Of a stretch of DNA of 32,362 nt, positions 12,801 to 32,055 are shown piece after piece. Every line of letters starts with the position of its first letter. Within the stretch, counting starts at the first letter, position 1. The notes beneath the pieces were generated by a model. That model saw nothing but the letters and a program-made list of their open reading frames with translations. It made no database searches and had not been told where the DNA came from. The translations under genes were made by a program, and so were the position numbers. Origin of the DNA: a virus; IMG/VR virus record IMGVR_UViG_3300026094_000019, positions 1-32,362 of that record, one strand, 5' to 3'.

Positions 12801-15800
12801 GTGGCAACTGGCAGAGCGTTCAGGTAGGAGAAGCCTACCATCAAGATGATGTGCTTACACTGGGGTCTGAAGACAAGAGTCTTGTGCTATCAATGATTGA
12901 CAGACTGAACGAGATTACAAAAAGTGTTGCAACCGGAGTCGAAGTTGTGCCTTTGCAGACAGGCACTGCACAGATATTTGGGCCCGCTAGCGGTGATACT
13001 AACACAGTCAACAAAATAGATAGTCTGTTTACTGATATAAAAAATATTATAGATAATGGTGCAGGTACTGTTGCAATAACCTATCCTACAGTATCAGACG
13101 CAGATGCCACTACTATTGTAAATGCGCTTGAATCGGCAAAAGCACAGATAGAAGATGACGCAATTACATTTATAAACACAAATTTTCCTAACCTCGAGTA
13201 CGACACTGCAAAATGTGAAAGAGATACAGGGTTAATAATTGATGCAGCAAAATACGACCTTGCATTAGGATCGAACTTTGCTACTATGGTTGCTGCATAT
13301 GCTTACAGACGTTCCTCTGGCGAGAAAGTTCTAGAACAGCAAAAAACAGCATCTATCGCTAATCTAGAATTCACAAGGCAAAGAACTAGGCAAGAAGTTC
13401 CTACTGGTTCGCAATACGACTTTGGCAGAACAGGCGTAGACAATACCTTTGAATTTGTATCAGATATTATACTCATAGGCACCACAGAAGGCAATGTAGA
13501 CCAGGTAGAAGACATCGAAGTCTATAACGGTCAGCATCAGATAAAAATAAATGAAGCGTTTATTGACGAGGAATCTCAATCTTACGTAGATGAGTATTTT
13601 AGTGCCACGGTTACAGGTATCAATCTTTCAACCAATACGCTAACTATAGATTCAACAGCATGGTTATACTACAATCAACCTATTCAATTTTCTGACAACA
13701 CATCAGGACTAGCGGAAGAAAACATTTACTACGTTTATGATATCATTTCGGATACCGAGTTTCAAATCAGCGAAACATCCTTTGGTCCGCTGCTGACTCT
13801 TGAAACAGCATGGGCAGCAGAATTTGTAGTAGAAGAGGCTTATAATTATACTACAGATTTAGATGTAAAAGATATACAAGAAATCATTTATGCCATGCTT
13901 TGGGATCTAACATGGCCGCAACAGTGGAATAGGCAGTACACAGGTGTTGCCGGAATCAGCGACTTTGAGATATACGTTCCTGCAATTTATCGTACTAAAC
14001 AAGCAGCAAGATGGTATGCAAATTCTATTATTGGATCCAAAGAAGAAGATATGTACTATCTTAGAAATGGTACAGGAGTTAGACTGCAGACAGTTGCAGG
14101 CTTGCAAGGTGATTTATCACCTGAGAATGAATTTGGCACACGCAGACCAACTGCAGGCGCGTATGCGTCACTGGATCCGGGCTGGGGACCCGCCGATGAA
14201 AGAGTATGGATCACAGCACGTTCGCCATATGTACAAAATCTTACCACATTCGGTTTTGCCTGTATAGGTCAAAAGATCGACGGCGAACTGCATGACGGCG
14301 GCAATGATTCAATTGTATCCAACGACTTTACACAGGTGATATCAGACGGCATTGGAGCATGGATCACAAACAACGGCAGAGCAGAATTGGTATCAGTGTT
14401 CTCGTATTATGCACACATTGGCTATCTAGCAGAAAGGGGCGGCAGAATACGTGGCACAAACGGCAACAACTCTTATGGAACATTCGGTTCTGTCGCAGAA
14501 GGTGTTGACCCAGAAGAAACACCTGTAACTGCTGTTGTGGATAATAGAACACAATTCAATGCAACTGTTGGAAGTGTTTTTGTAGCAGATGAGATATTGT
14601 CCTTCGAATTCAATCACGCAGGTAACGAATACACAGAAGCAGAATTTGCGGTGTTTGGACCGGGCGCAAATGAAGAAGTTGTTGCAGACGAATTCAGAGA
14701 TAATGCAGTTTATAGAGTAAAAATAGATGCTCCGGTTGATCCAGAAGACGATGCAGGCGGCGCTGGATACTTGGTAGTATCCAATACAGCACAGCAGGGA
14801 AGTCTTACAGGAATATTTCTAGCAGCCACAGACGGAAATATATCAAGTGCATATCCTGGAATGAAAATCTATCTCGTAGGCGGCGCCGGAAGAGGACAGT
14901 ACGGAATTATAGATACTTATAATTCAGGCTCGAAAGAAGCAACAGTTGTAAAAGAAGACGGCACTGCTGGTTGGGAACATGTTGTTCCAGGAAAAGAAAT
15001 TATTGCACCCAATTCTACTACAACGTATCAGATAGAACCTAGAATAGAATTTTCTGCTCCTCCGCAGACTTCTAGTGCAATCACAGTTTCGTCAGCAGAA
15101 TACGCCGCGCTAGACTATGTAGAAACAGTAGAAATTTACACAGCAGTTTCTGCCACAGGCGGCACAGGCACTGGTGCCGCCTTTGATGTCACTAGAGTAG
15201 GCTCCAAATATTATGTTGCTATAAATGCAGCAGGAGAAGGATATATTCGTTTAGAAGAACTCACAATAGCAGGAACAGATCTTGGAGGAGCATCTCCTCT
15301 CAACGATATTACAATAACTGTGCTTAGTTTAGATTCTCAAGGAACAATACTAGAGTTCGAATTCGAAGGTTACGGCGAAAAAGGATTTTTCTTTGGTCTA
15401 CCTGCATCAGGACAGACGGCGTACACGTCAGTAGACGGCTCGTCATGGTCACCTACTACTCTTGCAACTTCAGAAACCTGGTCAGACGTAGCATCTGGAC
15501 TGTTAGATGATGGTTCATCGGTATTCAAGCCAGATAGTGTAATTGCAGTGTCAGTCGACGGTACAGCAAACTACTCAACAGATGGTGCGGCAACATGGAA
15601 TTCTAGTTTAACAGGCCTTCCGACTACAGGATCTAAAAACATATCTTTTGGTAATGTAGGCGTAGATAATAACAGATTTGTTGTAATATCTGATAATTCG
15701 CAGGATGTTGCTTTTACTGTAGATGGCGGTGTAAACTGGACTGTGACAAGCAGCGCACTTCCGGACACAGGCTATGATGTGCTTGCATATGGCAAAGGCA

Positions 15801-17263
15801 TATTTGTTGCTTTAGCTTCTGGAACTAGTAGAACAGTTAACTCTGAAGATGGAGTAACATGGGCTGTTGGCTCTAATTTACCAACCAAAAACTGGCAGGA
15901 TCTTGTTTGGGGCAATGGTAGATTTGTTGCACTTGCAGACGACGGAACTGTAAGCTATTCTTTGGATGGCAAAAATTGGAATGATGTTGCAAATACACAG
16001 GAATCTTCAGGCAGAAAAATATCTTATGGTCACGGCGTGTTTGCTGTAACCACAGCAACAACTGCGATTCAATATTCAGAAGACGGAATAAACTGGAGTT
16101 CTGCTACAGGACTGTCTACAGATTACAACACAATTCAGTTTGGTAATCCTGATAGAACCGGCCGCTTTATTGCTATATCAGACGGCGTTACTACTGCAGG
16201 TATTGACTTCAAAGCAGGCGCTAGAGCACGCGGTAGAGCAAGTGTGTCTAACGAACAGATATTTGAAATTAGATTGGCAGAGCCAGGGTCTGGTTACGAT
16301 ACTGCTCCTTCAGTTACAATAACTGATCCTAATAACACCGAAGAAGTTCAATTACTTGTAAGAACAGGAGTAGGTGCATTAGCTAATCCTACATTCGTGT
16401 CAAGAGGTGAAGGTTTTTCAGAAGCAACTGCAGAAATTGTTGCAAGTGAAAGCAATGGATCGGCTGATTTTCTTCAAGACGGTGATTTGATTGCTGTTAA
16501 ACGTCTCAGCGAAAGACCAGTGAACGGATCTAACGTTGAATTTGCTGGCCTGCCTGGACAATTCTTCAAGTTAGTGAATACTCTTACATTCCTTGGAGAC
16601 AACGACGGTTCCTACACGGCATTTCTTCAGGTGTCACCAGACATTCCGTTAGGGGATGCGCCTCAGGACGAGGAAGCAGTTGAACTTAGAATTAGATATT
16701 CTCAGGTGCGTCTCACAGGTCACGATTTTCTTGATATTGGCACAGGCAACTTTGAAGAAACAAACTATCCTAACGAACCTGAATATCAGCCAGATCAAAA
16801 CAACGAAACTAGAGATAGAAACGGTGGCAGGGTGTTCTTCACTTCAACCGACCAAGACGGTAACTTCCGAGTAGGTGATTTGTTCTCTATTGAACAGGCC
16901 ACTGGCGTTGCTGCCATCAATGCTGATGCATTTAATCTTGCTGGGTTGCAAGAACTTTCATTGGGTGAGGTAACACTGGGCGGTAATTCTGCTTCTATAA
17001 CAGAATTTTCTACTGATCCATTCTTTACTGCCAACTCTGATAACGTTGTACCAACGCAGCGAGCAGTTAAGTCATTTATAGAATCACAGATTGGCGGCGG
17101 CGGCGCTAGTCTAAACGTAAATAGTGTTACAGCAGGTGACATTTTTATCGGCGGCGATCAAATTACTACAGTAAGCGGCGCTCCGATAAATATACGAGCA
17201 AATGTAGTGTTTGAAGGCTCAGTGCTTGGGATTCCGCTTGCATATCATTACTTTTTAAGATAA
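9890..17263 (+). CDS. Giant virion adhesin, paralogue of the 1850-aa protein, with cupredoxin-like insert
   Basis: 2457 aa, the largest gene here. Architecture parallels the preceding gene: seven W/GD repeats (residues ~11-500), beta-helix start near 573 (SIDRPFRSIRYATKQIE), GELRST-like VLGDELRSTRVEAR, second beta-helix block near 1445 (TTFGFACIGQKIDGELHDGG), Asp-box-like units near 1831-2060 (TSVDGSSW, NSEDGVTW, YSLDGKNW, YSEDGINW), and the shared end with HDFLDIGTGNF, STDQDGNF and DNVVPTQRA. Two additions set it apart. Residues ~104-245, between repeats 2 and 3, form a cupredoxin-like domain with H160, C225, H228 and M231. Three helical copies of C.RD.G.I.DA...D...G.N (near 655, 960 and 1105, with a weaker fourth near 1325) interrupt the beta-helix. 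It starts at an ATG with CGGAG seven bases upstream. A virion adhesin role is inferred. Confidence 0.75.
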   Translation: MAEFKLGRIRFVWKNAWGPGNEYYKDDVVSVGGKAYICIIGHISSPDFFTDLDTVPSKWSLIADGQKYAGQWTNNRSYINDDIVSYGARLYICNNSHTSTSQTGNDIYNITVQSEPGVANGVFYIDGVAAPDIQMPRGITFIWNQDDPSNLYEGAGVPVHPMVLSTTQDGTHNGGEIYTKGVSYFLDNVEVADAVAYAEGFADATTRQMRFTVPDDAPDTMYYFCFYHPNMSGDASAEIISLGLQDDSANWDLFAEGLDWKGEWHEDFNYRINDMVKYGGTTYVCTVPHQSAGIGSGRGIEVDLGFWEVFNAGFEYLNEFEPNFRYKKNDIVKYGAGLWISLNGHTSAADFESDIDNWDKFVEGFQFESEWEAYKDYQTGDIVTYGGNQYIAVSDNRETFPTQSAADWSLFSEGLKFVGDWNDDSSQIEYREGEVVRLGGFTYRCVKDHANQQPPNDEFWQRLNSGFEWRGEWIDGGEYYTGDTVRFGDNSYVALSYHIAEDGVNSPDIADSSEFWSVIAVGTEESVLTTQGDLVYYSGSAPVRLPIGQDGQILQVSSEGIPEWAFLDFVNDVYYVAEDGKDEPAPIYGKSIDRPFRSIRYATKQIENGARNPDARELLEKNRRFIQREIISFVDYQIANEISPFAIDFDYDSAKCERDMGLIVDAVAWDVAHGGNVRSREAALAYVNQSGNFYTLGQEAETVAAINYGLTVIESVLDQTDPVENYQTLAGDNSTSIVSQYKDSALTAEEGVYANTVELVQIITNTISAGTDTEIPPRRIRNTLIKVATGKYYETLPIIVPAECCVLGDELRSTRVEARTDANFTLLPVDDFRYHSVALDRVEQIVGDITEGVLVTPSTSNSLSQYNDWPVAETQWVAPEAERLARLIRREADFKIGTKQEAIFKPYYNMTDPADGRGRDLVLRNRHFLEAEAVAFVNENAAGERAYYSRTQLKRDVSYALEAVSYDVTYGGNWQSVQVGEAYHQDDVLTLGSEDKSLVLSMIDRLNEITKSVATGVEVVPLQTGTAQIFGPASGDTNTVNKIDSLFTDIKNIIDNGAGTVAITYPTVSDADATTIVNALESAKAQIEDDAITFINTNFPNLEYDTAKCERDTGLIIDAAKYDLALGSNFATMVAAYAYRRSSGEKVLEQQKTASIANLEFTRQRTRQEVPTGSQYDFGRTGVDNTFEFVSDIILIGTTEGNVDQVEDIEVYNGQHQIKINEAFIDEESQSYVDEYFSATVTGINLSTNTLTIDSTAWLYYNQPIQFSDNTSGLAEENIYYVYDIISDTEFQISETSFGPLLTLETAWAAEFVVEEAYNYTTDLDVKDIQEIIYAMLWDLTWPQQWNRQYTGVAGISDFEIYVPAIYRTKQAARWYANSIIGSKEEDMYYLRNGTGVRLQTVAGLQGDLSPENEFGTRRPTAGAYASLDPGWGPADERVWITARSPYVQNLTTFGFACIGQKIDGELHDGGNDSIVSNDFTQVISDGIGAWITNNGRAELVSVFSYYAHIGYLAERGGRIRGTNGNNSYGTFGSVAEGVDPEETPVTAVVDNRTQFNATVGSVFVADEILSFEFNHAGNEYTEAEFAVFGPGANEEVVADEFRDNAVYRVKIDAPVDPEDDAGGAGYLVVSNTAQQGSLTGIFLAATDGNISSAYPGMKIYLVGGAGRGQYGIIDTYNSGSKEATVVKEDGTAGWEHVVPGKEIIAPNSTTTYQIEPRIEFSAPPQTSSAITVSSAEYAALDYVETVEIYTAVSATGGTGTGAAFDVTRVGSKYYVAINAAGEGYIRLEELTIAGTDLGGASPLNDITITVLSLDSQGTILEFEFEGYGEKGFFFGLPASGQTAYTSVDGSSWSPTTLATSETWSDVASGLLDDGSSVFKPDSVIAVSVDGTANYSTDGAATWNSSLTGLPTTGSKNISFGNVGVDNNRFVVISDNSQDVAFTVDGGVNWTVTSSALPDTGYDVLAYGKGIFVALASGTSRTVNSEDGVTWAVGSNLPTKNWQDLVWGNGRFVALADDGTVSYSLDGKNWNDVANTQESSGRKISYGHGVFAVTTATTAIQYSEDGINWSSATGLSTDYNTIQFGNPDRTGRFIAISDGVTTAGIDFKAGARARGRASVSNEQIFEIRLAEPGSGYDTAPSVTITDPNNTEEVQLLVRTGVGALANPTFVSRGEGFSEATAEIVASESNGSADFLQDGDLIAVKRLSERPVNGSNVEFAGLPGQFFKLVNTLTFLGDNDGSYTAFLQVSPDIPLGDAPQDEEAVELRIRYSQVRLTGHDFLDIGTGNFEETNYPNEPEYQPDQNNETRDRNGGRVFFTSTDQDGNFRVGDLFSIEQATGVAAINADAFNLAGLQELSLGEVTLGGNSASITEFSTDPFFTANSDNVVPTQRAVKSFIESQIGGGGASLNVNSVTAGDIFIGGDQITTVSGAPINIRANVVFEGSVLGIPLAYHYFLR
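17185..17192 (+). promoter_or_regulatory. Possible T4-late-type octamer inside the end of the 2457-aa gene
   Basis: GATAAATA, identical to the boxes at 2051 and 9863, lies 83 bases before the ATG at 17276. It is inside coding sequence and could be chance; it could also give separate late transcription of the small fibre genes downstream. Confidence 0.28.
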
Positions 17264-21417: not shown

Positions 21418-22254
21418 ATGGATAGACTACAACAATATCATTTCGCAGAAAAATATATCAGTGAACTTAACACAGATGTATCAATGCTTGCCGAAAAAGA
21501 TCAAGAAATTTTGAACTACAGTTTGAATAAAGAATGGTGTAATCCCAAGTACAAAATGCGTTGGTTTGTAGGCGAGACGCAGATTACGCCATTCAGCAAA
21601 CTAAGACAGTGGCTGCTTGAAATAAAAGGCAGGGAGGAAGCAATCGAAGGGTTAGAATACGATATTGCAAAATGGCAGATTGAAATAGATAAAACCAATC
21701 ACATTGCTGAAAATACCACAGATGAATTTGAACGTAGATCTGCTGAACTTGAAGCTTGGAACCTAGAAAGAAAACAAATTGCCACTAAAAGAAGATTGTC
21801 AAATTGGTATCTTGAAAGACAGCAGTTGATTGATTTAGTGAATGAATTCCTAGAATCAGAAGAAGCAATTGTACCTGACGGTACTGGCAGAACTTATATG
21901 GATATAATGGACACTGAGGAAGAGGACCAATACGAAGCAGAATATTGGACTAATAGGTTGGCCAAGCAAGCAGCAACAGACATGTTGTTTTACGGCAGAA
22001 TAAACACAGGTAACATGGACGCAATTCTCAGCATGAGTTCAGAACAACAGACCGAAACTTTGACCTTAGCACTAAAATATGGCACTCAATTGCAGCAGTC
22101 GCAAGATCAAATACAGTCAGAAGTCAACGAGCAATTGGAACTAGAAAAACAGAATCAAAATGCGGCTCTCGCACATTCAGCAGATGGCAAACACACTAAC
22201 AACGTTTCTATCGATACAGAAGAGGACAATATGCTAAATGTATATAATACATGA
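21418..22254 (+). CDS. Hypothetical, helical/coiled-coil protein
   Basis: 278 aa, highly charged and mostly helical, not recognised. An AAGGATGGTG stretch precedes the ATG at 21418. Residues ~60-145 have a heptad-like pattern rich in E, K, R, L and W (EAIEGLEYDIAKWQIEIDK, ELEAWNLERKQIATKRR) fitting a coiled coil; the C-terminal ~60 residues (LQQSQDQIQSEVNEQLELEK) are polar and again coiled-coil-like. There is no membrane segment or enzyme motif. It directly follows the adhesin genes and could be a fibre assembly chaperone, as many phages place a chaperone gene after the fibre; this is inference from position, not homology. Its end overlaps the next gene by 17 bases. Confidence 0.55.
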   Translation: MDRLQQYHFAEKYISELNTDVSMLAEKDQEILNYSLNKEWCNPKYKMRWFVGETQITPFSKLRQWLLEIKGREEAIEGLEYDIAKWQIEIDKTNHIAENTTDEFERRSAELEAWNLERKQIATKRRLSNWYLERQQLIDLVNEFLESEEAIVPDGTGRTYMDIMDTEEEDQYEAEYWTNRLAKQAATDMLFYGRINTGNMDAILSMSSEQQTETLTLALKYGTQLQQSQDQIQSEVNEQLELEKQNQNAALAHSADGKHTNNVSIDTEEDNMLNVYNT

Positions 22255-22753
22255 AACACTGTCGGATCATGATCCAAGAATAGATTCTAGAACTACGTTA
22301 ATAGGTGATTATTGGCATTTCACAGTTCGGTACATTCCAGACGAATCAGTATACCTCGACTGGCTGTTATATGAAGAAATCTCAGAATCAGTTGCTAAAT
22401 CTTATAAAATCACAAAGTCCTATAAAGGAGTCATTAGTATTTCAGAACCTGTTACTAACATTGATGAAATTACTCAGGTATCTGCCGACACAGAGTATAA
22501 AAAATACATATATGAGTTAACTGACACTGATAAATCCAATGTTACAGAGTTAATGAAAGCTAGCATGAGATTGTATGCTAAAGCAAGATTGCAAAATCCA
22601 ATACTAGAAAAATTATTAGTAGAAGTAGATCTTGCAGACTCTATTGAAAGATGCGAATATGTTATGCACCACTATTACGGCGTGGGTTCAGCAACAATGG
22701 ATAAAACTCCCCAAAGGCCTGCATTCGAAGTAAACTGGCCTAGAGAAATTTGA
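22238..22753 (+). CDS. Hypothetical protein overlapping the coiled-coil gene
   Basis: 171 aa, not recognised. The start at 22238 overlaps the previous gene by 17 bases, and a GAGG near 22222-22225 lies at workable distance. The N-terminal half looks mixed alpha/beta (MYIIHETLSDHDPRIDSRTT, YWHFTVRYIPDESVYLDWLL), the C-terminal half helical (KSNVTELMKASMRLYAKARL, SIERCEYVMHHYYGVG). No signal peptide or membrane segment. It ends 38 bases before the enzyme cassette, so it is the last gene of the upstream unit. It may partner the overlapping coiled-coil protein, but nothing in the sequence shows a function. Confidence 0.5.
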   Translation: MYIIHETLSDHDPRIDSRTTLIGDYWHFTVRYIPDESVYLDWLLYEEISESVAKSYKITKSYKGVISISEPVTNIDEITQVSADTEYKKYIYELTDTDKSNVTELMKASMRLYAKARLQNPILEKLLVEVDLADSIERCEYVMHHYYGVGSATMDKTPQRPAFEVNWPREI

Positions 22754-22782
22754 TTGACTTTCTGTATATTCGCTGTTAAACT
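22754..22782 (+). promoter_or_regulatory. Possible sigma70-type promoter before the enzyme cassette
   Basis: TTGACT at 22754-22759 matches the -35 consensus at five of six bases. TAAACT at 22777-22782, 17 bases further, matches -10 TATAAT at four of six. It fills the only gap (22754-22791) before the five-gene cassette. The expected start of transcription would fall almost on the ATG at 22792, giving a very short leader, so this is weak evidence. The nearby TATATT at 22765-22770 lacks a -35 element. Confidence 0.3.
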
Positions 22783-22791
22783 TAACGAGTA

Positions 22792-24459
22792 ATGAAGAAT
22801 TTATTTAGTATTCCACTCAATCCAAAACTCTCTCCTCAGCAATATGAAGAATTCATAGAATTTGCTGTCAATTATAAACATTTAATATACGATATATATT
22901 TTACCAGCAGAATTGCTCCGTTTGGACAAGATGCAATGGGCGATGTGTTTGTGCTTCAGGAAGATTACGGATATGCAATTGATATAGCGCTGAAAATACA
23001 AGAATTTACCGGTGTGCCTGTAAGTGCTACCTTTAATAACATTCAAGTGCCTCCTACACAGAAAAATCTTGATATTTTTATTTACAATTTTAAACGTCTG
23101 TACGATGCGGGAGTACGCAAAGCAACTATTCCGCATACACACTGGATGGCAACTGGACAAATCGAAGCAGCATTTCCTGAGCTAGAAGTTAAGAACACGA
23201 TACTGCGAGATGTTCGAACTGCAACCGAAATTGTAAATCTTGCAAAATACGGATTTGACTATATTAATTTGGACCGAGATCTTATGCGGGATAGAGACAC
23301 ACTATTGCGCTTGAAACAAGCAAAGGAATGGATTAAAGAAAACCTAGGACGAGAAATCAAATTCAGTTTGCTAGCAAACGAAGGCTGCATCGGAAATTGT
23401 CCGATGATGGTTGAACATTTTGAATTTAATAATAATCGGGAAGGAGCATCTCCTCAGTACTTTAATGATCCAATAAGCCGAGTCAGTTGTCCTAAGTGGA
23501 ATGTTGAGGATCCGTCTGTCCATCTAAAAAAAGCAAATTTACCACCGTGGAAAGCTGATTGGGAAGAGCTTGTAAGAGACCTTGGTATAGATGTCTTCAA
23601 AATGCACGGCCGCGAAGCAATTAGTCGAATGTACGAAACAATGGATATTGTTAAAAGATGGGATAACAACGAAGTGTTCCTTCATGATACGTTTAGCAAC
23701 TATCTAGAAGAAACAAATCTCTTGAACAAACCTATCAATATATGGCGCGATAAAATAAAAAATTGCAAGTTTGACTGCTGGGAATGCCAATATTGTGACA
23801 AGATATATCAAGCCAAAACTGCTATGGATCACAGTGATCTTGTTAAACACACTGCAGATAGCATAGCAAAATCAGGCATTCCGACCGTTAATATTCCAGT
23901 TATAGGACTGACCTCACCTAGAGTACAAACACTACTAAATTTACTTGCACAAGGAGTAGACACCTACCTAGAAGTAGGTTCGTATCAAGGAGCAACACTG
24001 TGTGCTACAATGCTGGATAATCCAATAACTGCGGTTGCTATAGATAACTGGGAAGAACAGATTCAATCAAAAAACGGAAGCGTAAAAGCAGAAAACGATA
24101 TAAACACATTCATGAAAAATGTAGAAGAATACAGAGGTAGGTCGATTGTAAATGTTTTGAACTCAGACCTGTTTCAAGTGGATGTCACTCCGATGTTGCA
24201 CAGCATGAAATTATTCTTCTATGACGGTCCTCATGATCAACAAAGTGTGAAACAATCTGTAGAACATTACTGGCCTGCGCTTACAGAAGAATGTATATTG
24301 GTGTTTGATGATGCAAATTGGAAAGGAGTAGTGGACGGTGCTAGAGAAGGCATTAATTCATGTAATGGTATTGCTATCTATGAAAAAATGCTTCTAAATA
24401 GCGAGGAAAGCAAAAACGACTGGTGGAATGGTTTATACATAGTTGTAGCGAGAAAATAA
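22792..24459 (+). CDS. Fusion: Cys-cluster TIM-barrel-like domain + class I SAM methyltransferase
   Basis: 555 aa in two parts. Residues ~1-340 have alternating strand-helix spacing suggesting a TIM barrel (SIPLNPKLSPQQYEEFIEFA, VPVSATFNN, GVRKATIPH, GFDYINLDRDLM, IKFSLLANEGCIGNCPM) and a cysteine set: C199, C203, C233, C325, C329, C332 and C335. The NEGC...CP and C...C..C..C spacing recalls iron-sulfur U32-family/UbiU-like proteins, but I do not claim a peptidase. Residues ~375-555 fit a Methyltransf_24-type class I methyltransferase: glycine-rich motif I EVGSYQGATL (394-403), AVAIDNW after strand 2, FFYDGPHD (475-482) and LVFDDANWKG. Together with the abutting halogenase and oxygenase, a tailoring role on a small molecule or amino acid is plausible. 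The substrate is unknown. The two halves could have acted as separate enzymes in an ancestor. Confidence 0.68.
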   Translation: MKNLFSIPLNPKLSPQQYEEFIEFAVNYKHLIYDIYFTSRIAPFGQDAMGDVFVLQEDYGYAIDIALKIQEFTGVPVSATFNNIQVPPTQKNLDIFIYNFKRLYDAGVRKATIPHTHWMATGQIEAAFPELEVKNTILRDVRTATEIVNLAKYGFDYINLDRDLMRDRDTLLRLKQAKEWIKENLGREIKFSLLANEGCIGNCPMMVEHFEFNNNREGASPQYFNDPISRVSCPKWNVEDPSVHLKKANLPPWKADWEELVRDLGIDVFKMHGREAISRMYETMDIVKRWDNNEVFLHDTFSNYLEETNLLNKPINIWRDKIKNCKFDCWECQYCDKIYQAKTAMDHSDLVKHTADSIAKSGIPTVNIPVIGLTSPRVQTLLNLLAQGVDTYLEVGSYQGATLCATMLDNPITAVAIDNWEEQIQSKNGSVKAENDINTFMKNVEEYRGRSIVNVLNSDLFQVDVTPMLHSMKLFFYDGPHDQQSVKQSVEHYWPALTEECILVFDDANWKGVVDGAREGINSCNGIAIYEKMLLNSEESKNDWWNGLYIVVARK

Positions 24460-25971
24460 ATGTATCTTAATAAAATCAAAAAAATTACAATATTTGGAGG
24501 AGGCACAAGCGGTTGGCTGACTGCTGCATTCCTGCTGAACAATCTTGCTGTTCCTACAGAGATAGTATTGATAGAAAATTCTAAACAAGGGCCTATCGGT
24601 GTCGGCGAAGGAACACAGCCATTGACTGCAAAGTTTCTGAGTCAATGCGGTATACCTCCGCATCTGTGGATGAAAGACAGCAATGCAAGTTTTAAATACG
24701 GAGTAGAATTGGTAGGATGGAATAATGATTCCTATTTTGTAGACAATGACAATTTTACAAATGCAATAATCGCTGATGATTTCTTTACCAGCGATTATTT
24801 CATAGACAGATCATATTCTGAGTTTGCAGAATGGCATCCTGCTTATAGATTAGCAAAAAAGAACATCTGTCAGAAATACGACGACTACCTTGACGTGAAT
24901 CTTGGAATGAGTCCGCACGATTTTGGCGCTGTTCATTTCAGTGCATATGCCATTATTGCTACAATAAAAAAATTAATTGAAAAAGATATAACATACATAG
25001 ACACAGATATCATCGAAGTTGAATCATCAGACCATGGTATTCAGGCTTTAATCGATTCAGCAGGATCTCAATTTACATCTGATCTTTTTATTGACTGTTC
25101 AGGATTTTCCAGTAGATTATTAGAACAAGAACTCAAAGTACCTTTTAATTCTTTTTCTGATTACCTGCTAAATGATAGTGCTGTTATGATACGGTCACAG
25201 TACACAGATCCGCAATCTCAGTGTCATCCTTACACAAAAGCAACTGCAATGGATGCAGGATGGCGATTTACAATACCGACTTTCAAAGACATAGGCAATG
25301 GATACATATATTCAAGCGACTTTATTTCTGAGGAAGATGCTGAGAAGGAATTACGCACTGCAATATCTGAGTATGTATCTCCAGCAAAACATTTAAAAAT
25401 GAAGTGCGGAAGTCATAAAGAAATTGCAGTAAAAAATGTTTGTGCAGTTGGGCTCGCTGCCGGATTTGTTGAGCCTCTAGAAGCAACTGGAATAACATTT
25501 ACAACTGCAGCAGTGTCGCAAATAGCGGCTGTGCTAAATCAAAGTGGAAATGTTTGGGGTGATCATCAAAGAGCAAATATAAATCATTATTTTGAATTTA
25601 TGACCTATGAAATTTTGGCTTTTGTGTGGGCGCATTATTTTTATTCTTCAAAAAATGACACAGAATACTGGAAACAGGTTCACAAACAAAAACTAGAGAA
25701 TTTACCTAGATTATCGAGAGAAATTTTAGATATGTTTATTCCAGAACCAAAAAGATTCTTTAATTTAACATCTTACTCAATGTTTAACGTAGTCCAGTGG
25801 TTCAGTGTGTTGCATGCCGGCGGCGCCTATTCAAATACCCAATCAAATCTTACGGACAAACAGAAAAAATATGCAGAATATTTTCTTGAAACTCACAATC
25901 AAAGAGTGAAACTGGCAGAAGAAATGTTTGATAATCATTATGACTATCTAACCAAATGGTACAGCAAATGA
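24460..25971 (+). CDS. Flavin-dependent tryptophan-halogenase family protein
   Basis: 503 aa, starting directly after the previous stop. The FAD-binding motif GGGTSGW (13-19) and GVGEGTQP (47-54) fit the tryptophan halogenase family. K79, in SFKYGVEL, aligns with the catalytic Lys79 of PrnA, and E341, in FVEPLEATGI, with PrnA Glu346 (known chemistry: FADH2 and O2 make HOCl, which is relayed to Lys). The usual WxWxIP motif is present as WRFTIP (268-273), with Phe for the second Trp. A flavin reductase partner is needed in this family and none is seen here, so the host may supply it. Cyanophage Syn10 encodes a characterised relative, VirX1, reported to iodinate and halogenate diverse substrates. 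Halide preference and substrate here are unknown. Family call is strong; activity is inferred. Confidence 0.9.
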   Translation: MYLNKIKKITIFGGGTSGWLTAAFLLNNLAVPTEIVLIENSKQGPIGVGEGTQPLTAKFLSQCGIPPHLWMKDSNASFKYGVELVGWNNDSYFVDNDNFTNAIIADDFFTSDYFIDRSYSEFAEWHPAYRLAKKNICQKYDDYLDVNLGMSPHDFGAVHFSAYAIIATIKKLIEKDITYIDTDIIEVESSDHGIQALIDSAGSQFTSDLFIDCSGFSSRLLEQELKVPFNSFSDYLLNDSAVMIRSQYTDPQSQCHPYTKATAMDAGWRFTIPTFKDIGNGYIYSSDFISEEDAEKELRTAISEYVSPAKHLKMKCGSHKEIAVKNVCAVGLAAGFVEPLEATGITFTTAAVSQIAAVLNQSGNVWGDHQRANINHYFEFMTYEILAFVWAHYFYSSKNDTEYWKQVHKQKLENLPRLSREILDMFIPEPKRFFNLTSYSMFNVVQWFSVLHAGGAYSNTQSNLTDKQKKYAEYFLETHNQRVKLAEEMFDNHYDYLTKWYSK

Positions 25972-26540
25972 TAACTCTTTTTGATTCAGTGCTTGAAACA
26001 GTTCCTAATGTAGGAAATGACGAACAACTTCGTTCTCTTTTAGGACAAATTGAAAACAACAGAAACGAACCGTCTAACAACAATACAAATGATGGATGTT
26101 GGAGATCCAGTAAAAAATACAAAGATATTGATTGGCTTATTAAGGAGATAACAAACACAGTCTCTAATGCAATCAAGTACTACAGCAATAAAGATCAAGT
26201 TTTTGCTGAAGCCGTAAAAAATCTTAATATAAAAGATTTAAAAATTTTTTATTGGACAAATGTAAATCAACCCTTGTCACGAAATGTCATCCATTCGCAT
26301 AAAAGTGCAATATTTTCTGGTGTATATTACCTACAAGGAACAGACACAGGAAATCTAAGATTTATAAATCCTGCGAATATTTTAGGAGAATGCAATAACT
26401 GGTCACCTTTTACAAGAGACTTTTTCTACACGCCTTCTGACAGAGATCTAACTATGTGGCCATCATGGCTACCTCACGAGGTTGAAACAAACCTTTCAAA
26501 TCGTGAAAGAATTAACATAGCATACGATATTATAATATGA
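25968..26540 (+). CDS. 2OG-Fe(II) oxygenase (2OG-FeII_Oxy_5-like)
   Basis: 190 aa from the ATG at 25968, whose ATGA overlaps the halogenase stop by four bases; an in-frame ATG at 25956 would add four residues. The motif H109-S-H111 in NVIHSHKSAIFSGVYYLQG, H170 in PSWLPHEVE and R181 in NRERINIAYD give an HxH...H iron triad with a 2-oxoglutarate-binding Arg, as in the PF13759-type family that often shows HSH and SGVYYL. It likely hydroxylates a small molecule, amino acid or peptide in the cytoplasm using Fe(II), O2 and 2-oxoglutarate. Substrate unknown; proximity to the halogenase suggests a joint pathway. It overlaps the next gene by four bases (ATGA), so translation is probably coupled. Such oxygenases are common in cyanophages, so it need not act with the halogenase. 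Confidence 0.82.
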   Translation: MITLFDSVLETVPNVGNDEQLRSLLGQIENNRNEPSNNNTNDGCWRSSKKYKDIDWLIKEITNTVSNAIKYYSNKDQVFAEAVKNLNIKDLKIFYWTNVNQPLSRNVIHSHKSAIFSGVYYLQGTDTGNLRFINPANILGECNNWSPFTRDFFYTPSDRDLTMWPSWLPHEVETNLSNRERINIAYDIII

Positions 26541-27271
26541 AGAGAATAGAGTTTTATTCAAAAATACCAGGTGTAGCCGATATGTTTCCTATTGTGCATG
26601 CTCGTGATGCACTGCCTAGATGGGCCAAATCGGCTAAAAAAAACTACGTAAACACAAAAAAAAGCACAATTGGCAGAAACAATCACATTTATCAATGTCC
26701 GGGCATATTCAATCTAATGACTCAGGGATACATTGTGCCAATGTGGCACGATGTGATAATTTCTACTAACGGTGATCCAGACTCCTTTTCGTGGACTGTT
26801 CCAACATCTGATTTAAACGAACTAGACAACGAAACCGATATAATAGAAAATCAAACTAACGGCGTAGGATCATTGATGCCTATGAAACCCTGGAGTATGA
26901 ACACCTTGATTAAAATCAATACTCCGTGGAACGTTGTTGCACCTAGAGGTATCAAATTATTGATACTGCCAATATCTTATCCTGACAGTTTTGAGTTTGA
27001 AAGTTCGATCGGCATTCAAGACCCTGGGATATCTAATGAAATAAATGCACAATTGTATTACAACGTAACCAAAGGAGATTATTTGATAAAAGCGGGAACT
27101 CCTTTGTTTCAAATAGTTCCTTTGAGTGAAAAAAATATAGATATGACTTGCAGAGAAATGAACAATTTAGACAAGTTATGGATTGCAAAAAGGCGATATT
27201 TTAACACAGCATCGTTTAAGATTAAAAGAAATATTGTCAAGGATATATACTATCGTCACTTTGGGAAATAA
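26537..27271 (+). CDS. Conserved marine-phage protein of unknown function (DUF6065-like?)
   Basis: 244 aa. It has P-rich WAKSAKKNYV near the N-terminus, CPGIFNLMTQGYIVPMWHD in the middle and a C-terminal beta-rich half with INTPWNVVAPRGIKLLILP followed by IKAGTPLFQIVPL. I remember this order (C.P.FD..T.GYI, NPW.I.TP.G.S.L, GTP..Q..PF) from a protein family widespread in T4-like cyanophages, possibly the one named DUF6065, but I could not check. The function of that family is unknown to me. It may form a cupin-like barrel. The ATGA overlap with the oxygenase and two-base gap to the next gene place it in the cassette. Cytoplasmic; no membrane segment. Confidence 0.6.
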   Translation: MKRIEFYSKIPGVADMFPIVHARDALPRWAKSAKKNYVNTKKSTIGRNNHIYQCPGIFNLMTQGYIVPMWHDVIISTNGDPDSFSWTVPTSDLNELDNETDIIENQTNGVGSLMPMKPWSMNTLIKINTPWNVVAPRGIKLLILPISYPDSFEFESSIGIQDPGISNEINAQLYYNVTKGDYLIKAGTPLFQIVPLSEKNIDMTCREMNNLDKLWIAKRRYFNTASFKIKRNIVKDIYYRHFGK

Positions 27272-27273
27272 AA

Positions 27274-27678
27274 ATGTTTAGCGAAATATTTACTGATGAT
27301 TTAGCAGTTTATACTGTGGTACCGAGAGAGATAACAGACGATACTGCTCTCTATAAATTTCAGCGAGATCGACAAAAGAAACGAAAATTTATCCAGGAAC
27401 TGCTGAAACACAATGAAATTATGATATTTTATATAGAAGAGGAGGACGGTCTTGAAAAGTTTGTTGTTGCTACGCTGAAAAACATAGATGTTGATGCTTT
27501 TGATTTGCCAGAAGCAATTGACGAATGGCGAAACAATACCTATCAAGTTAAACATCATGTTCCTTTTATCAGTGTACCGGATAAGACTCCCTTTTATATA
27601 CATGTTGACGATATAACAAAAATAGTTTTACGAAATGAAAATATACAGGAAGTTACAAAAAATTTAAAATTATGGTAA
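27274..27678 (+). CDS. Hypothetical protein closing the enzyme cassette
   Basis: 134 aa, not recognised. It starts two bases after the previous stop. Acidic and basic residues alternate in helices (TALYKFQRDRQKKRKFIQEL, FVVATLKNIDVDAFDLPEA), followed by strands and IHVDDITKIVLRNENIQEVT; the pattern suggests a small alpha/beta fold. No Cys, metal site or membrane segment stands out. The end overlaps by nine bases the convergent NUDIX gene. It may be a late-regulated partner of the cassette enzymes, but that rests on position alone. Homologues may exist in cyanophages. Confidence 0.5.
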   Translation: MFSEIFTDDLAVYTVVPREITDDTALYKFQRDRQKKRKFIQELLKHNEIMIFYIEEEDGLEKFVVATLKNIDVDAFDLPEAIDEWRNNTYQVKHHVPFISVPDKTPFYIHVDDITKIVLRNENIQEVTKNLKLW

Positions 27679-28110
27679 CTGATCTATTTGGTCAAGCACA
27701 TCAACAATGGTAGAAATTTTGACCTGATTGACTTTTTTGTTTAAAGTGTTTTTGACGCCGTAATGTAAAGGATTTGGCCAACAGTTATAAGTTACCCATG
27801 CATATCCATTGTGCTCGCAATTTAAACAAGGTTGAAATTCTTCTTGTACAACACATAGATAGGTATGATATACAAATAAAGAATCGCGAGATTTAAACTT
27901 CTCAAGTGGCATGGTTTTTGAAATTGAAACAACTCCTATTTCTTCCTGAATTTCGCGCTCACAGCCCTCCCATTCTGTTTCTTCTCCTTCCAGTGTTCCT
28001 CCAACTAACCCCCATACATTAGATCGTTTACTTTGAGCACGGTGTACAAAAAGAAATCTTTTTGTATCTAAGGCATAAAATAATGCTCCTGAACAAATAG
28101 TTGATATCAT
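27670..28110 (-). CDS. NUDIX hydrolase
   Basis: 146 aa from the ATG at 28110; an in-frame TTG at 28137 would add nine residues, but neither start has a clear Shine-Dalgarno. Residues ~38-60 contain a complete NUDIX box, GX5EX7REUXEEXGU: G, five residues (TLEGE), E, seven residues (TEWEGCE), then REIQEEIGV. A preceding VHRAQSKRSNVWGLVGG strand is typical. These enzymes hydrolyse nucleoside diphosphates linked to another group (for example dNTPs, NADH, ADP-ribose, mRNA cap-like ends); the substrate here is not determined. It is alone on the minus strand in this stretch, converging with the cassette (nine-base overlap) and divergent from the 28187 gene. NUDIX genes are common in T4-like phages. 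The catalytic assignment is strong; role and expression class are inferred. Confidence 0.85.
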   Translation of the reverse strand: MISTICSGALFYALDTKRFLFVHRAQSKRSNVWGLVGGTLEGEETEWEGCEREIQEEIGVVSISKTMPLEKFKSRDSLFVYHTYLCVVQEEFQPCLNCEHNGYAWVTYNCWPNPLHYGVKNTLNKKVNQVKISTIVDVLDQIDQLP

Positions 28111-28159
28111 ATGTTTATATACTTTATCATGTGCCAAAATAATTGCAATTGTGATTCTA

Positions 28160-28186: not shown

Positions 28187-30589
28187 ATGTCAGAATTATT
28201 TGATAGAATAAGACTTATTCCCAGAGCGGGCGACTTCCTTGGTAGAATTACAGGCTCTAGCGGACAAATTTATACCAATAAAACAACTGGCAGTTTGCGA
28301 GTTTACGACGGTGATAATCAGGGAGGCGCTGAACTTGCAAGAGCAGACTTTGCAAATATAGAAGACAACGCTGCACTAAATTTAAAGGGCGAAAAAAACC
28401 GCATACGGTTTGCATGGACTACTCTAACAGAATTAGAAACTGAAGTAGATCCTAGTATTTACGCAGGTATGATTGCGTATGTTGCTGCTGAAAACAGATT
28501 ATATTTTGCAGAAGTAGACGGATGGAAACCAGTTGCCAATTTATCAGAGATTAGCGAGTCTGGCACACAGATTCCTTACACACCAGACGATTCGAATACT
28601 CTGCTTCATGTAAGCGGAACATACGATTTTGGAAACAATATATTAAAGTATGCTAATGCTATTGATCAGGAATCACAGTTGTCAAACTATGACCCGTCCG
28701 TATACCACGGCATGACTATGCATGTGCATTCTACCGGAGCCTTGTACTATGCTCATGACGGTGCTTGGCGCAAATTACTGACTGATACAAGCTTTAACAA
28801 TGTAGAAGCAGCAGGCTATGTTTCGCCTCTCGGGCCAGTAGCGTATTCGAACTCTTATGTTGATTTAGATAATACTCCTAATAGCATATTAGATTTTGGT
28901 ATTGTAGACGGCGCTTCAGGACAAGTTCTTTCTACTAACGGTGCAGGCTCTTTCAGTTTTATTGATGTTGCAACCGAGTCTGGCAGTTCGTTTGACCTAA
29001 TAGAAACAGACAACGGATCTTTTGATCCTAGCGAGTTATCAACCCTGTCTTTCTCGGGCGGCGATAATATTTCAACAGAGGTAGTAACAGATTCAGATGC
29101 GGTTACTATCAACCTTAATAGTTTTTCTATCAACTTTCTTTCGGATGTAGATACTCAGAGTAACCCACCTAGCACAGGAGAAGTTTTAAAATGGGACGGT
29201 GCAAAATGGTCTCCTGGCACAGATATAGCAGAAGGCGGCACCGGTCTTGATGCCGACACACTTGACGGCCAGGACGGATCCTACTATCTCAACTATAATA
29301 ATTTTACAAATACACCGGACGTGTTGACCTTAGACGAGTTAGGGGTAAACAATGAAGCAGCAGCTAGCGGCAATGGAGCAATTAGTTACGACAATACTAC
29401 AGGATTATTTCGATACACGCCCCCTACTGCTGCAGGAATAGGTGCAGCATCTCTATCAGATTTCAGTGTCACAGTTGATCCACCAGGTGTTACCAGTTTA
29501 ACATACAATGATTCTACTGGTGTTTTTCGTTATACTCCTCCTCAACTGGGCGATTTTGAATTTACAGGGACTATACTAGATACTGTTGGTAGTGCGCAAA
29601 TTACAGTAACACCGGATGTTAATTTCTCTGGTGCAGTATCTTTTACTACGCTGTCATCAACTGGTGTAGGAACACTTACTTTGGATAGTGCTAGTTCTAT
29701 TGCGCTTGTTGCAGAAGATGATATATCTTTTTCTGCAGGCACAGGTAGTATTATCTTAGACAATCAATCCTGGCCTCAGGCAGACGGCGCGAGCGGCGAA
29801 GTTTTATCTACCGACGGCCAAGGTCAATTGAGTTGGCAATCCGTAAGCGGAAATGATCAAAATCTATTTGAAACAATATCAGCAGATTCTGGATCCACAA
29901 CAGCAGATACAGTCACAGACACACTAACTGTATCTGGCGGAACTGATATAACAACTTCTGTCAGCGGAGATGTCCTCACAATTGATTTTACAGGAACAGG
30001 CAGTAATCAAAATGTGTTTGAGACAGTTAGTGGAGATTTTGGAAGCACCACTGCTGACACAAGTTCAGACACACTAACTGTATCTGGCGGTACTGATATT
30101 TCCACTTCTGTAAGCGGAGACACACTCACAATAAATTACACCGGCGGCGGCGGAGGTGTGACAGATTTCAGTCAATTAACTGACGCACAAAATGCTAATC
30201 AAAGAACAATAGACCAAGTATTTGAAACTGCTATTTGCACACTGCGAGGTATTGCTAATGGATTTGTATCATACAGTTGGGAAGATCATTATACAGGAGA
30301 AAATCCCACAATCTATGCTTTATCAGGGACCACTCTTGCTTTTGATCTAAACAATTTGGCGGGCCATCCTACCGAAATTCAAGATGCATCAGGGAATCCA
30401 TTAACAACTGGCTTGACATGGGTTTCTCCTAGCGGCCAGGTTTTAACTGGAGCATCTGCTAATGATCAACAAACCGGAACGCTTTATTGGCGTATAAATG
30501 AAAGCATCAGCGGCAATTTTTTATATCAATGCACTGCGCACGCATCTATGGTCGGCGATATAGTAGTAAAAAGACTAAGTCTACTTTAA
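28187..30589 (+). CDS. Fibre-like virion protein with C-terminal cupredoxin-like domain
   Basis: 800 aa. The N-terminus (MSELFDRIRLIPRAGDFLGR, then IYTNKTTGSLRVYDG and RADFANIEDNAALN) resembles structural proteins I remember from marine T4-like phages. The middle is fibre-like: DADTLDGQDGSYYLN, paired RYTPP units, and two adjacent 50-residue copies (558-607 and 608-657) with DTLTVSGGTDI.TSVSGD.LTI. Residues ~700-800 form a separate domain: PTIYALSGTTLAFDLN, H727 in AGHPTEIQD, then C782, H785 and M788 in FLYQCTAHASMVGDIVVK. This H...C-x2-H-x2-M pattern equals the amicyanin-type copper ligand arrangement. It is preceded by an exact late promoter. The stop overlaps the stop of the minus-strand gene by four bases. 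Virion location is likely; copper binding is inferred. Confidence 0.72.
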   Translation: MSELFDRIRLIPRAGDFLGRITGSSGQIYTNKTTGSLRVYDGDNQGGAELARADFANIEDNAALNLKGEKNRIRFAWTTLTELETEVDPSIYAGMIAYVAAENRLYFAEVDGWKPVANLSEISESGTQIPYTPDDSNTLLHVSGTYDFGNNILKYANAIDQESQLSNYDPSVYHGMTMHVHSTGALYYAHDGAWRKLLTDTSFNNVEAAGYVSPLGPVAYSNSYVDLDNTPNSILDFGIVDGASGQVLSTNGAGSFSFIDVATESGSSFDLIETDNGSFDPSELSTLSFSGGDNISTEVVTDSDAVTINLNSFSINFLSDVDTQSNPPSTGEVLKWDGAKWSPGTDIAEGGTGLDADTLDGQDGSYYLNYNNFTNTPDVLTLDELGVNNEAAASGNGAISYDNTTGLFRYTPPTAAGIGAASLSDFSVTVDPPGVTSLTYNDSTGVFRYTPPQLGDFEFTGTILDTVGSAQITVTPDVNFSGAVSFTTLSSTGVGTLTLDSASSIALVAEDDISFSAGTGSIILDNQSWPQADGASGEVLSTDGQGQLSWQSVSGNDQNLFETISADSGSTTADTVTDTLTVSGGTDITTSVSGDVLTIDFTGTGSNQNVFETVSGDFGSTTADTSSDTLTVSGGTDISTSVSGDTLTINYTGGGGGVTDFSQLTDAQNANQRTIDQVFETAICTLRGIANGFVSYSWEDHYTGENPTIYALSGTTLAFDLNNLAGHPTEIQDASGNPLTTGLTWVSPSGQVLTGASANDQQTGTLYWRINESISGNFLYQCTAHASMVGDIVVKRLSLL
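29858..30157 (+). repeat. Two tandem 150-base repeat units in the 800-aa fibre gene
   Basis: Codons 558-607 and 608-657 encode matching units beginning QNLFETIS or QNVFETVS and containing DTLTVSGGTDI; 25 bases near the middle are identical in both. The unit is exactly 50 codons, so copy number can change without a frameshift. Confidence 0.75.
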
Positions 30590-32055
30590 AATTCTATGCG
30601 CCAGGCTCCGTTAGGATATTCGCCTTCGAATGACATGCGCCATTCAGAATTTTCAAACTTGTATTGAACACCGGTGTTAAGATTTGTAGTGTAAACTGGT
30701 GTTACTGTGGAATCCGAGTCAGTAGAATCAAACACAACCTGCCATTCTGTGCCTGTCCATTCTATGATATCATTAGCAGTTGCAGTAAGGTCCGACCCGT
30801 CTTGGTTCTTCCAAGCGTCTGCTCCGTCTGTGTTTTGAGAGTTGCCAATAGATTCTAGTATTAATATTCTCGGATTGGCACTTAGATCTAGATTTTCGGG
30901 ATTTGATTTTTGAGGATCTATAATATAATCTATCTTAGATCTTGGACCTAAACTACTGGTGATTACAGTGTCAGTAGGAATTGAATCCTCGTCCCAGTTA
31001 ACAACTGCCTGCGAAGTATCCGTAGAAATAGCAAAAGTGCCAACTATTTCTGTTGGTAGATCCGAACGCTGTAACCGTATCGTTGATATACCTTCTTCGA
31101 ACTTGAACGGGAATGCTTCTAGGAATTGCCACCATGATATTCCTCCTACTGCACCATTTTTGACCAGTTGCAGAGTGTTATTCATTACTAGTAGATCAAT
31201 GTCCTGATAGGTGGTTTTGAGAATTGCGAGCACAGACTGTTCTGTGTCATAGTCTTTTCTCGTAGTAGCACGTTCTAGATCTCCTGACTCATTTACAAAC
31301 AGTTCCGTTTGAATATCAGCGTCTCCTTCAGGCAGAGAAAAATCTATGTCTGTTGTAGCGTCAATTAACTCCTGTTTGGAATTATGAATACGACTGACAA
31401 TGTCCGTAATAACACCCATTCGTTTGACTTTCGCAGGAGGCGAAATGTATATAGGTGTAGTAAATGACAGTGTGGAAACGTCTATTTCTGTTTCTGTACC
31501 CTGAGGTATTGTTCTTGAACTCCAAGTTATTGAATCAAGATATACTGCGGATAGAGAAGTCCAGTCAAGATAGTTGTCTGTGGTCTGTAATTCAAGAGAA
31601 GGATTAAACAGCATTAGTATCTGCTCAAGTATCTGCAGTTTCTGATCTGTGTTTGTGCTCCATAGATCTACACTAACTGTGAGAGTGTAGGGTGTTGGCA
31701 TGAGGCGTTCAACTGTGTAATTCTTGCCTTCTGTGTTTAGATACTCGTTGCCTGCAGAGTCAAATTCTCTTTCTCTAATATTAACTTTATTGACATAGGA
31801 TGAATCTGCTAGTCTCGAAGTGTCTAGTTCTAGGCCTGTGACATACAGCGCCATTCGAGGTGCGTTTGGTATTTTGTTTTCTGAATTGTTTCTGATTATG
31901 TTGGCAACCTGACGTGTTAGGTCTCCATACATAGCAGGCACTGTAACAACGTTACCTGAACCGTCTTTGTAGGAAAAGCCACTCATCATTCTTACCATCT
32001 GAGTGATGTATCTTCTTAGTTGTCCGTCGTAAAAATGGTCTAATTGATTTGACAT
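30586..32055 (-). CDS. gp15: Tail sheath stabilizer / completion protein, gp15-like
   Basis: 489 aa on the minus strand. The N-terminal 220 residues fit T4 gp15: HFYDGQLRRYITQM (T4 YFYNSSFRRYATLM), VPAMYGDLTRQVANIIRN, APRMALYVTGLELD, TPYTLTVSVDLWSTN, QILEQILMLFNP, and the TEIDVSTLSF..PIYISPP strand. T4 gp15 (272 aa) caps the tail tube and sheath and joins the head neck. Here residues beyond ~230 are an extension with beta-rich sequence (LDLSANPRILILESIGN, DIIEWTGTEWQVVF), about 200 residues longer than T4 gp15. The ATG at 32055 overlaps the upstream gene's stop (TAATG). Family call rests on remembered motif order, strong for the first half; the role of the extension is unknown. Confidence 0.72.
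   Translation of the reverse strand: MSNQLDHFYDGQLRRYITQMVRMMSGFSYKDGSGNVVTVPAMYGDLTRQVANIIRNNSENKIPNAPRMALYVTGLELDTSRLADSSYVNKVNIREREFDSAGNEYLNTEGKNYTVERLMPTPYTLTVSVDLWSTNTDQKLQILEQILMLFNPSLELQTTDNYLDWTSLSAVYLDSITWSSRTIPQGTETEIDVSTLSFTTPIYISPPAKVKRMGVITDIVSRIHNSKQELIDATTDIDFSLPEGDADIQTELFVNESGDLERATTRKDYDTEQSVLAILKTTYQDIDLLVMNNTLQLVKNGAVGGISWWQFLEAFPFKFEEGISTIRLQRSDLPTEIVGTFAISTDTSQAVVNWDEDSIPTDTVITSSLGPRSKIDYIIDPQKSNPENLDLSANPRILILESIGNSQNTDGADAWKNQDGSDLTATANDIIEWTGTEWQVVFDSTDSDSTVTPVYTTNLNTGVQYKFENSEWRMSFEGEYPNGAWRIEF

Follow-up and report, generated by a model that had tools for sequence, protein, structure and literature searches.

What do the enzymes encoded by five adjacent genes in an aquatic phage act on? 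The genes, here named A to E, lie on the plus strand at positions 22792-27678 of the virus record IMGVR_UViG_3300026094_000019, whose 32,362 bases are referred to below as the window, and the question is whether their products modify a metabolite or a residue on a component of the phage. The evidence leans to a phage component. With a confidence somewhat short of an even chance, A-E are interpreted here as a late module that tailors fibre-region proteins of the phage itself. This interpretation is favoured because of the late position of the genes, judged by gene content, their co-variation with two upstream fibre-region genes (T1 and T2), the hydroxylases to which relatives of D are joined and the absence of parts of a natural-product cluster. 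The arrangement is widespread, is built from known enzyme classes and, to our knowledge, has so far been undescribed. Its strongest new pieces are the structure of a constant gene plus a module, the identity of D with the hydroxylase fusions of its homologues, and the adjacency of a D homologue to the cyanophage halogenase VirX1.

The original prediction described five plus-strand genes with junctions of 0, -4, -4 and +2 bases, and the open reading frame (ORF) calls agree; the enzyme classes that it named are borne out by family matches for A, B and C. The features of the locus are the following.

T1, 21418..22254, plus strand: fibre-region gene of the phrog_1409 family, co-varying with the module.
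T2, 22238..22753, plus strand: fibre-region gene, before A in most relatives.
Promoter-like site TTGACT-N17-TAAACT, 22754..22782, plus strand: sigma70-type, in the gap between T2 and A.
A, 22792..24459, plus strand: 555 amino acids (aa), predicted U32-like beta/alpha barrel fused to a class-I O-methyltransferase.
B, 24460..25971, plus strand: 503 aa, predicted flavin-dependent halogenase (PF04820) of a phage-only clade.
C, 25968..26540 from the second ATG (longest ORF from 25956), plus strand: 190 or 194 aa, predicted 2-oxoglutarate (2OG)-Fe(II) oxygenase (PF13759).
D, 26537..27271, plus strand: 244 aa, phrog_7084, remote DUF6065 homologue with a dUTPase-like predicted fold.
E, 27274..27678, plus strand: 134 aa, small protein, with which the operon ends in many relatives that carry the module.
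Nudix hydrolase, 27670..28137, minus strand: convergent with the operon, at the right border of the co-varying block, a neighbour and not a member.

The gene order recurs far above chance, in dozens of contigs, the most distant of them at about 50-60% identity. The string G20-T1-T2-A-(oxygenase)-B-C-D-E was found repeatedly (118 sequences), and a search with A alone, limited to contigs that extend 5 kb or more beyond A and share no 200-mer, yielded 56 distinct IMG/VR contigs, which are related and so do not represent 56 independent events. B, C and D follow A in the same order in 37 of the 56, E being present as well in 20 of these; 15 carry nothing of the module and four only a part of it (B-C or B-D). 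The pattern is one unit of fixed order, not the single scattered homologues that would have counted against the original prediction, and the same-order search across relatives that had been suggested as a check finds it at identities from 75% down to about 50%. An assembly artefact is unlikely because contigs from two sister datasets match the region at 99-100% identity, L007 throughout and L024 starting within D.

The proposal of a transferred cassette of five genes is not supported by this comparison, since A is a constant gene of the locus. It recurs without B-E not only in the 15 contigs mentioned above but also in cyanophages, where A was found in 123 records and all three neighbourhoods inspected have no B-E behind it. 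In seven distinct contigs A is followed by the Nudix gene and then by the gp15 gene, both on the minus strand, with nothing in between; these contigs are natural empty sites for B-E. A therefore belongs to the locus, and B-C-D(-E) is better read as an added variable module behind it.

Nor does the co-varying unit coincide with the five genes. Correlations of pairwise distance among T1, A, B, C and D are at r 0.80-0.95, compared with 0.63-0.73 with gp15 over the same 10 loci, and among T1, A, B and D at r 0.88-0.91, compared with 0.33-0.47 with the Nudix gene (16 loci), which adjoins E in the window. We take T1-T2-A-B-C-D to form a block that is passed on or exchanged as one, its right-hand border lying after E. 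Within this block, a sigma70-like site keeps its position in the T2-A gap across relatives (for example, TTGACA-N17-TATACT in L009), and of 44 occurrences of a -10 box followed by AAGTA over all loci, 30 fall in this gap. The window's own copy is weaker, a single-site match there being at background level, so that it is conservation across relatives, and not the match in the window, that points to a putative promoter of A-E. In seven relatives (L011, L012, L046, L050, L051, L057 and L065) the -10 box lies within a terminator-like hairpin in the same gap, giving a compact promoter-in-terminator element, for example GGTGCTATAATAAGTA...TATAGTGCCTTTTTTT.

The composition of the genes gives no sign of recent arrival. 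The AT-richness pointed out in the original prediction is real in comparison with most fibre genes (GC 0.33-0.38 versus 0.42-0.45), but T1, T2 and the Nudix gene are AT-rich too. The third-position GC (GC3) of A-E, 0.25-0.35, is within the range of the neighbours and, in the 155-kb relative G009, stands at the 23rd to 51st percentile of the genome; GC3 thus does not mark A-E as foreign, and recent transfer on grounds of composition was rejected. The nearest cellular halogenases found are 27-36% identical to B, and no C, D, E or A was found near the 80 nearest bacterial halogenases, which led us to reject a cellular origin. The ordinary GC3, the distance and surroundings of the cellular halogenases and the deep phage-only clade assigned to B together give no indication of a recent transfer; neither the foreign composition nor the cellular near-relatives of a mobile cassette were seen. 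As for the phage itself, the earlier label 'T4-like' holds in a wide sense, given a gp15 homologue in the window and relatives whose gp23 has its closest counterparts in jumbo T4-superfamily phages; in two relatives the major capsid protein is ~70% identical to that of Vibrio phage 2.275.O and Sinorhizobium phage Phosso. By sequence, the phage is assigned to a jumbo T4-superfamily group of large aquatic phages. A cyanophage host was rejected, psbA being absent from 19 related records, which may be fragments. The Nudix gene (27670-28137) stands beside a gene for a gp15-type tail sheath stabiliser (30586-32055, minus strand), and the same pair is annotated in Pseudomonas jumbo phages.

B matches Trp_halogenase (PF04820) at 3e-87, with 293.7 bits against a cut-off of 21. 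The GxGxxG motif, the catalytic Lys79 and the active-site EPLEATG with both Glu residues are invariant in 28 of 28 sequences, as are W268, I272 and P273 of the WxWxIP motif, whose second Trp is Phe in 12 of 28, the window included. Judged by these residues, B is a predicted flavin-dependent halogenase with intact catalytic residues. The solved structures closest to it are those of tryptophan halogenases, including VirX1 (E 1.5e-48). In a quick tree with 40 cellular proteins and some long branches, the B proteins of the module group as a single clade (SH-aLRT 100, stem 1.26), separate both from the cyanophage/VirX1 clade and from the cellular proteins. B falls outside the VirX1-type cyanophage clade and, as far as this tree indicates, represents a new, deep branch of viral halogenases confined to phages.

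VirX1 itself is the 530-aa protein CPUG_00131 of cyanophage Syn10 (whole-length match to 6qgm), the gene for which overlaps that of a D homologue, CPUG_00130, by 17 bases. The pairing of halogenase and D therefore exists with two halogenase clades, VirX1 adjoining a D homologue and the module B forming a separate clade. Judged by tblastn coordinates, 14 of the 16 cyanophage records having D place the D homologue no more than ~2 kb from a halogenase; for Sf-CH5 and Sf-CH8 no halogenase was among the matches listed, and none was nearby in the neighbourhood of Sf-CH8, which was inspected. Cyanophages carry a related set, made up of a halogenase, a D homologue and arrays of 2OG oxygenases, behind fibre-region genes; in S-RIM44 and Sf-FP1 the set also precedes neck genes. 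A second halogenase of another clade is present in the module-bearing L016, L064, L069, L070, L071 and L078, and in L016, L069, L070 and L078 it is near the VirX1/cyanophage clade.

C matches 2OG-FeII_Oxy_5 (PF13759) at 8e-16, with 58.7 bits against a cut-off of 27, and scores under the TIGR02466 cut-off (56.0 versus 62.5). Its HxH...H...RxN pattern includes the invariant H113, H115, H174 and R185, the iron and 2OG ligands, which makes C a predicted 2OG-Fe(II) oxygenase. E gave no usable match in Pfam, PHROGs or PDB, and a resemblance by eye to WYL_2 was judged too weak. D is assigned by PHROGs profile matches to phrog_7084 (1e-40), and A to phrog_1458. In the comparison of D with DUF6065 (PF19541), one of 41 members reached E 0.089, short of the Pfam gathering cut-off, while profile against profile the hhalign probability is 96% (E 2.4e-9) over 230 columns; D is, on this evidence, a remote DUF6065 homologue. 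In two bacterial proteins DUF6065 is fused to a Cupin_8/JmjC-type hydroxylase domain, and in a third to SapC (L252, L254 and L255). The homology of D to DUF6065 and these Cupin_8/JmjC fusions suggest, by the gene-fusion argument, that D works with a hydroxylase. DUF6065 as a halogenase partner in bacteria was rejected, as no halogenase was present in 20 neighbourhoods, and no paper naming DUF6065 was found in the literature searched. A diverged second paralogue of D (D2) stands behind E or D in many relatives (L047, L049, L050, L053, L059, L062 and L067); the window has no D2. The predicted structure of D (pLDDT 90) has dUTPases as its best fold matches (Foldseek, E 2e-4, TMt up to 0.69). Of the dUTPase motifs, an alignment read by eye shows no more than remnants: motif 3 is reduced to its Asp, motif 4 appears as a GTPxxQ variant, and motifs 1, 2 and 5 were not seen.

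The alternative that fares best, although it remains unlikely, is an auxiliary metabolic operon, the products of which make or modify a free small molecule, such as halogenated tryptophan or another aromatic compound, and so alter host metabolism or protect the infected cell. A small-molecule role is the default in the cyanophage literature, where phage halogenases are treated as metabolic genes (PMC10452541) and protection against antibiotics has been proposed for S-CREM1 (PMC9964418, a study that also gathered virion data), and it agrees with the resemblance of B to tryptophan halogenases of solved structure. However, no core biosynthetic enzyme or synthase, carrier, precursor peptide, exporter or other transporter, resistance gene, or partner of the ribosomal-peptide (RiPP) or nonribosomal peptide synthetase (NRPS) type was found in the window genes that were scanned, which do not include the two very long fibre ORFs. 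The position of the genes behind those of the fibre region is also fixed across two phage lineages, and DUF6065 is tied to cupin hydroxylases.

Modification of a host surface component (a glycan, lipid or receptor) late in infection, for superinfection exclusion or progeny release, has a low probability. The late structural region, as judged by gene content, would suit it, as would the bacterial halogenase relative that in one case adjoins a TonB-dependent receptor gene and the SapC domain fused to a DUF6065 protein, but the operon has no glycosyltransferase or membrane enzyme.

We give as little chance to an action of A on RNA, with B-E as a separate matter, in which A would represent a fused form of the tRNA wobble pathway in which the U32-type hydroxylase TrhP and the O-methyltransferase TrmR/YrrM yield 5-methoxyuridine (PMC6599085). 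The C-terminal domain of A matches Methyltransf_24 at residues 393-507 (4e-10, 40.8 bits against a cut-off of 26.3), has the ExG...G motif with invariant G396 and G400, which makes it a predicted SAM-dependent O-methyltransferase, and finds its best PDB sequence match in YrrM/TrmR (E 0.004). The N-terminal domain is predicted by AlphaFold2, at moderate confidence, to have the beta/alpha order of a TIM barrel, and this model (pTM 0.58) matches the fold of the U32 protein Mk0906 (5d88, E 8e-7, TMt 0.62). The U32 profile, however, is matched at a probability of only 11% (hhalign). A was rejected as a U32/TrhP member, having NEGCxGxC in place of the HGxxCx6C motif; seven Cys residues (199, 203, 233, 325, 329, 332 and 335) are invariant in it. 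In addition, A stands in the fibre locus in every neighbourhood inspected, and no tRNAs or RNA elements were found in the window.

Hypermodification of nucleotides or DNA bases, with D as a dUTPase-like enzyme and C and B modifying pyrimidines, is very improbable, for although the predicted fold of D and the annotation of its S-CREM1 homologue as a 'triphosphate nucleotidohydrolase' fit it, the motifs of D are missing or altered, C is a PF13759 protein and not a TET/JBP-type enzyme, and the genes hold a structural-gene position.

For the tailoring of fibre-region proteins, the catalytic residues of B and C are invariant, and we infer the timing of expression, the substrate, the chemistry of the A barrel, the role of D and the benefit as follows. 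A, the constant enzyme of the fibre locus, probably hydroxylates and O-methylates an aromatic group; B would halogenate an aromatic side chain; C would hydroxylate using 2-oxoglutarate; and D, as a non-catalytic partner, may present their substrate to C and B. The likeliest candidate for this substrate would be a phage protein made simultaneously by the neighbouring genes (T1/T2 or the fibres), which would place the modified residues where the virion makes contact with its host. A collagen-like substrate was rejected, as the fibre proteins of the window contain no Gly-X-Y runs. Two of these proteins have cupredoxin-like segments with a type-1 copper ligand set, one at the C-terminus of 28187-30589 (~residues 725-790) and one in 9890-17263 (~160-240); in the former, His, Cys, His and Met are invariant in 14 relatives, and its PDB matches, although weak, are almost without exception to blue copper proteins. 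No paper joining phage, cupredoxin and tail fiber was found in the literature searched.

Several points weigh against protein tailoring. No flavin reductase was seen, and FADH2 would have to come from the host. Free small molecules are the substrates of many flavin halogenases, and VirX1 takes many small aromatics in vitro (PMC8407142). D is present with no halogenase close by in two cyanophages (Sf-CH8 was inspected), in haloviruses (HCTV-8 was inspected) and in one gammaproteobacterium. The co-variation comes from few, non-independent loci, linkage and recombination could yield it without shared function, and a place beside fibre genes can be inherited through linkage.

A more specific form of fibre-protein tailoring, which we put forward tentatively as somewhat less probable than its opposite, is a dedicated phage system for the post-translational halogenation and hydroxylation, with methylation, of fibre-region proteins of the virion itself; D would serve in it as a DUF6065-type adaptor, and VirX1 would be a distant member. 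If this is true, viral halogenases would act natively on virion proteins and not on metabolites. In the papers considered here, the genes for phage halogenases and 2OG oxygenases are counted as metabolic, and VirX1 is described without a native substrate; an operon that links a second halogenase clade and a hydroxylase to the fibre locus, together with a DUF6065-type partner, would offer a concrete, testable candidate role and a short list of candidate substrates.

Compared with known systems, the VirX1 loci (Syn10, Syn9, S-RIM44, P-TIM40, S-CREM1 and Sf-FP1) share a halogenase followed by a D homologue, mostly with 2OG oxygenases, behind fibre-region genes. They differ in that the halogenase is of the other clade, A is not directly in front and E was not found there, and, unlike the module of the window, they often contain two halogenases and many oxygenases. 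In the phrog_1458 locus of the cyanophages S-H25, P-RSM1 and S-CAM4, A stands behind fibre-region genes, as here, but without B-E behind it. TrhP and TrmR, which produce mo5U34 in tRNA, comprise two similar kinds of domains, separate there and joined in A, which lacks the U32 cysteine motif and has its seven other invariant cysteines. Bacterial DUF6065 proteins, alone or fused to Cupin_8/JmjC or SapC, are homologous to D over ~230 columns, although D scores under the Pfam cut-off and the bacterial genes sampled have no halogenase beside them. The tryptophan halogenases PrnA, RebH and PyrH have the sequence family and the catalytic residues in common with B, but the nearest cellular halogenases found are only 27-36% identical to it, and its clade is separate from the cellular proteins sampled.

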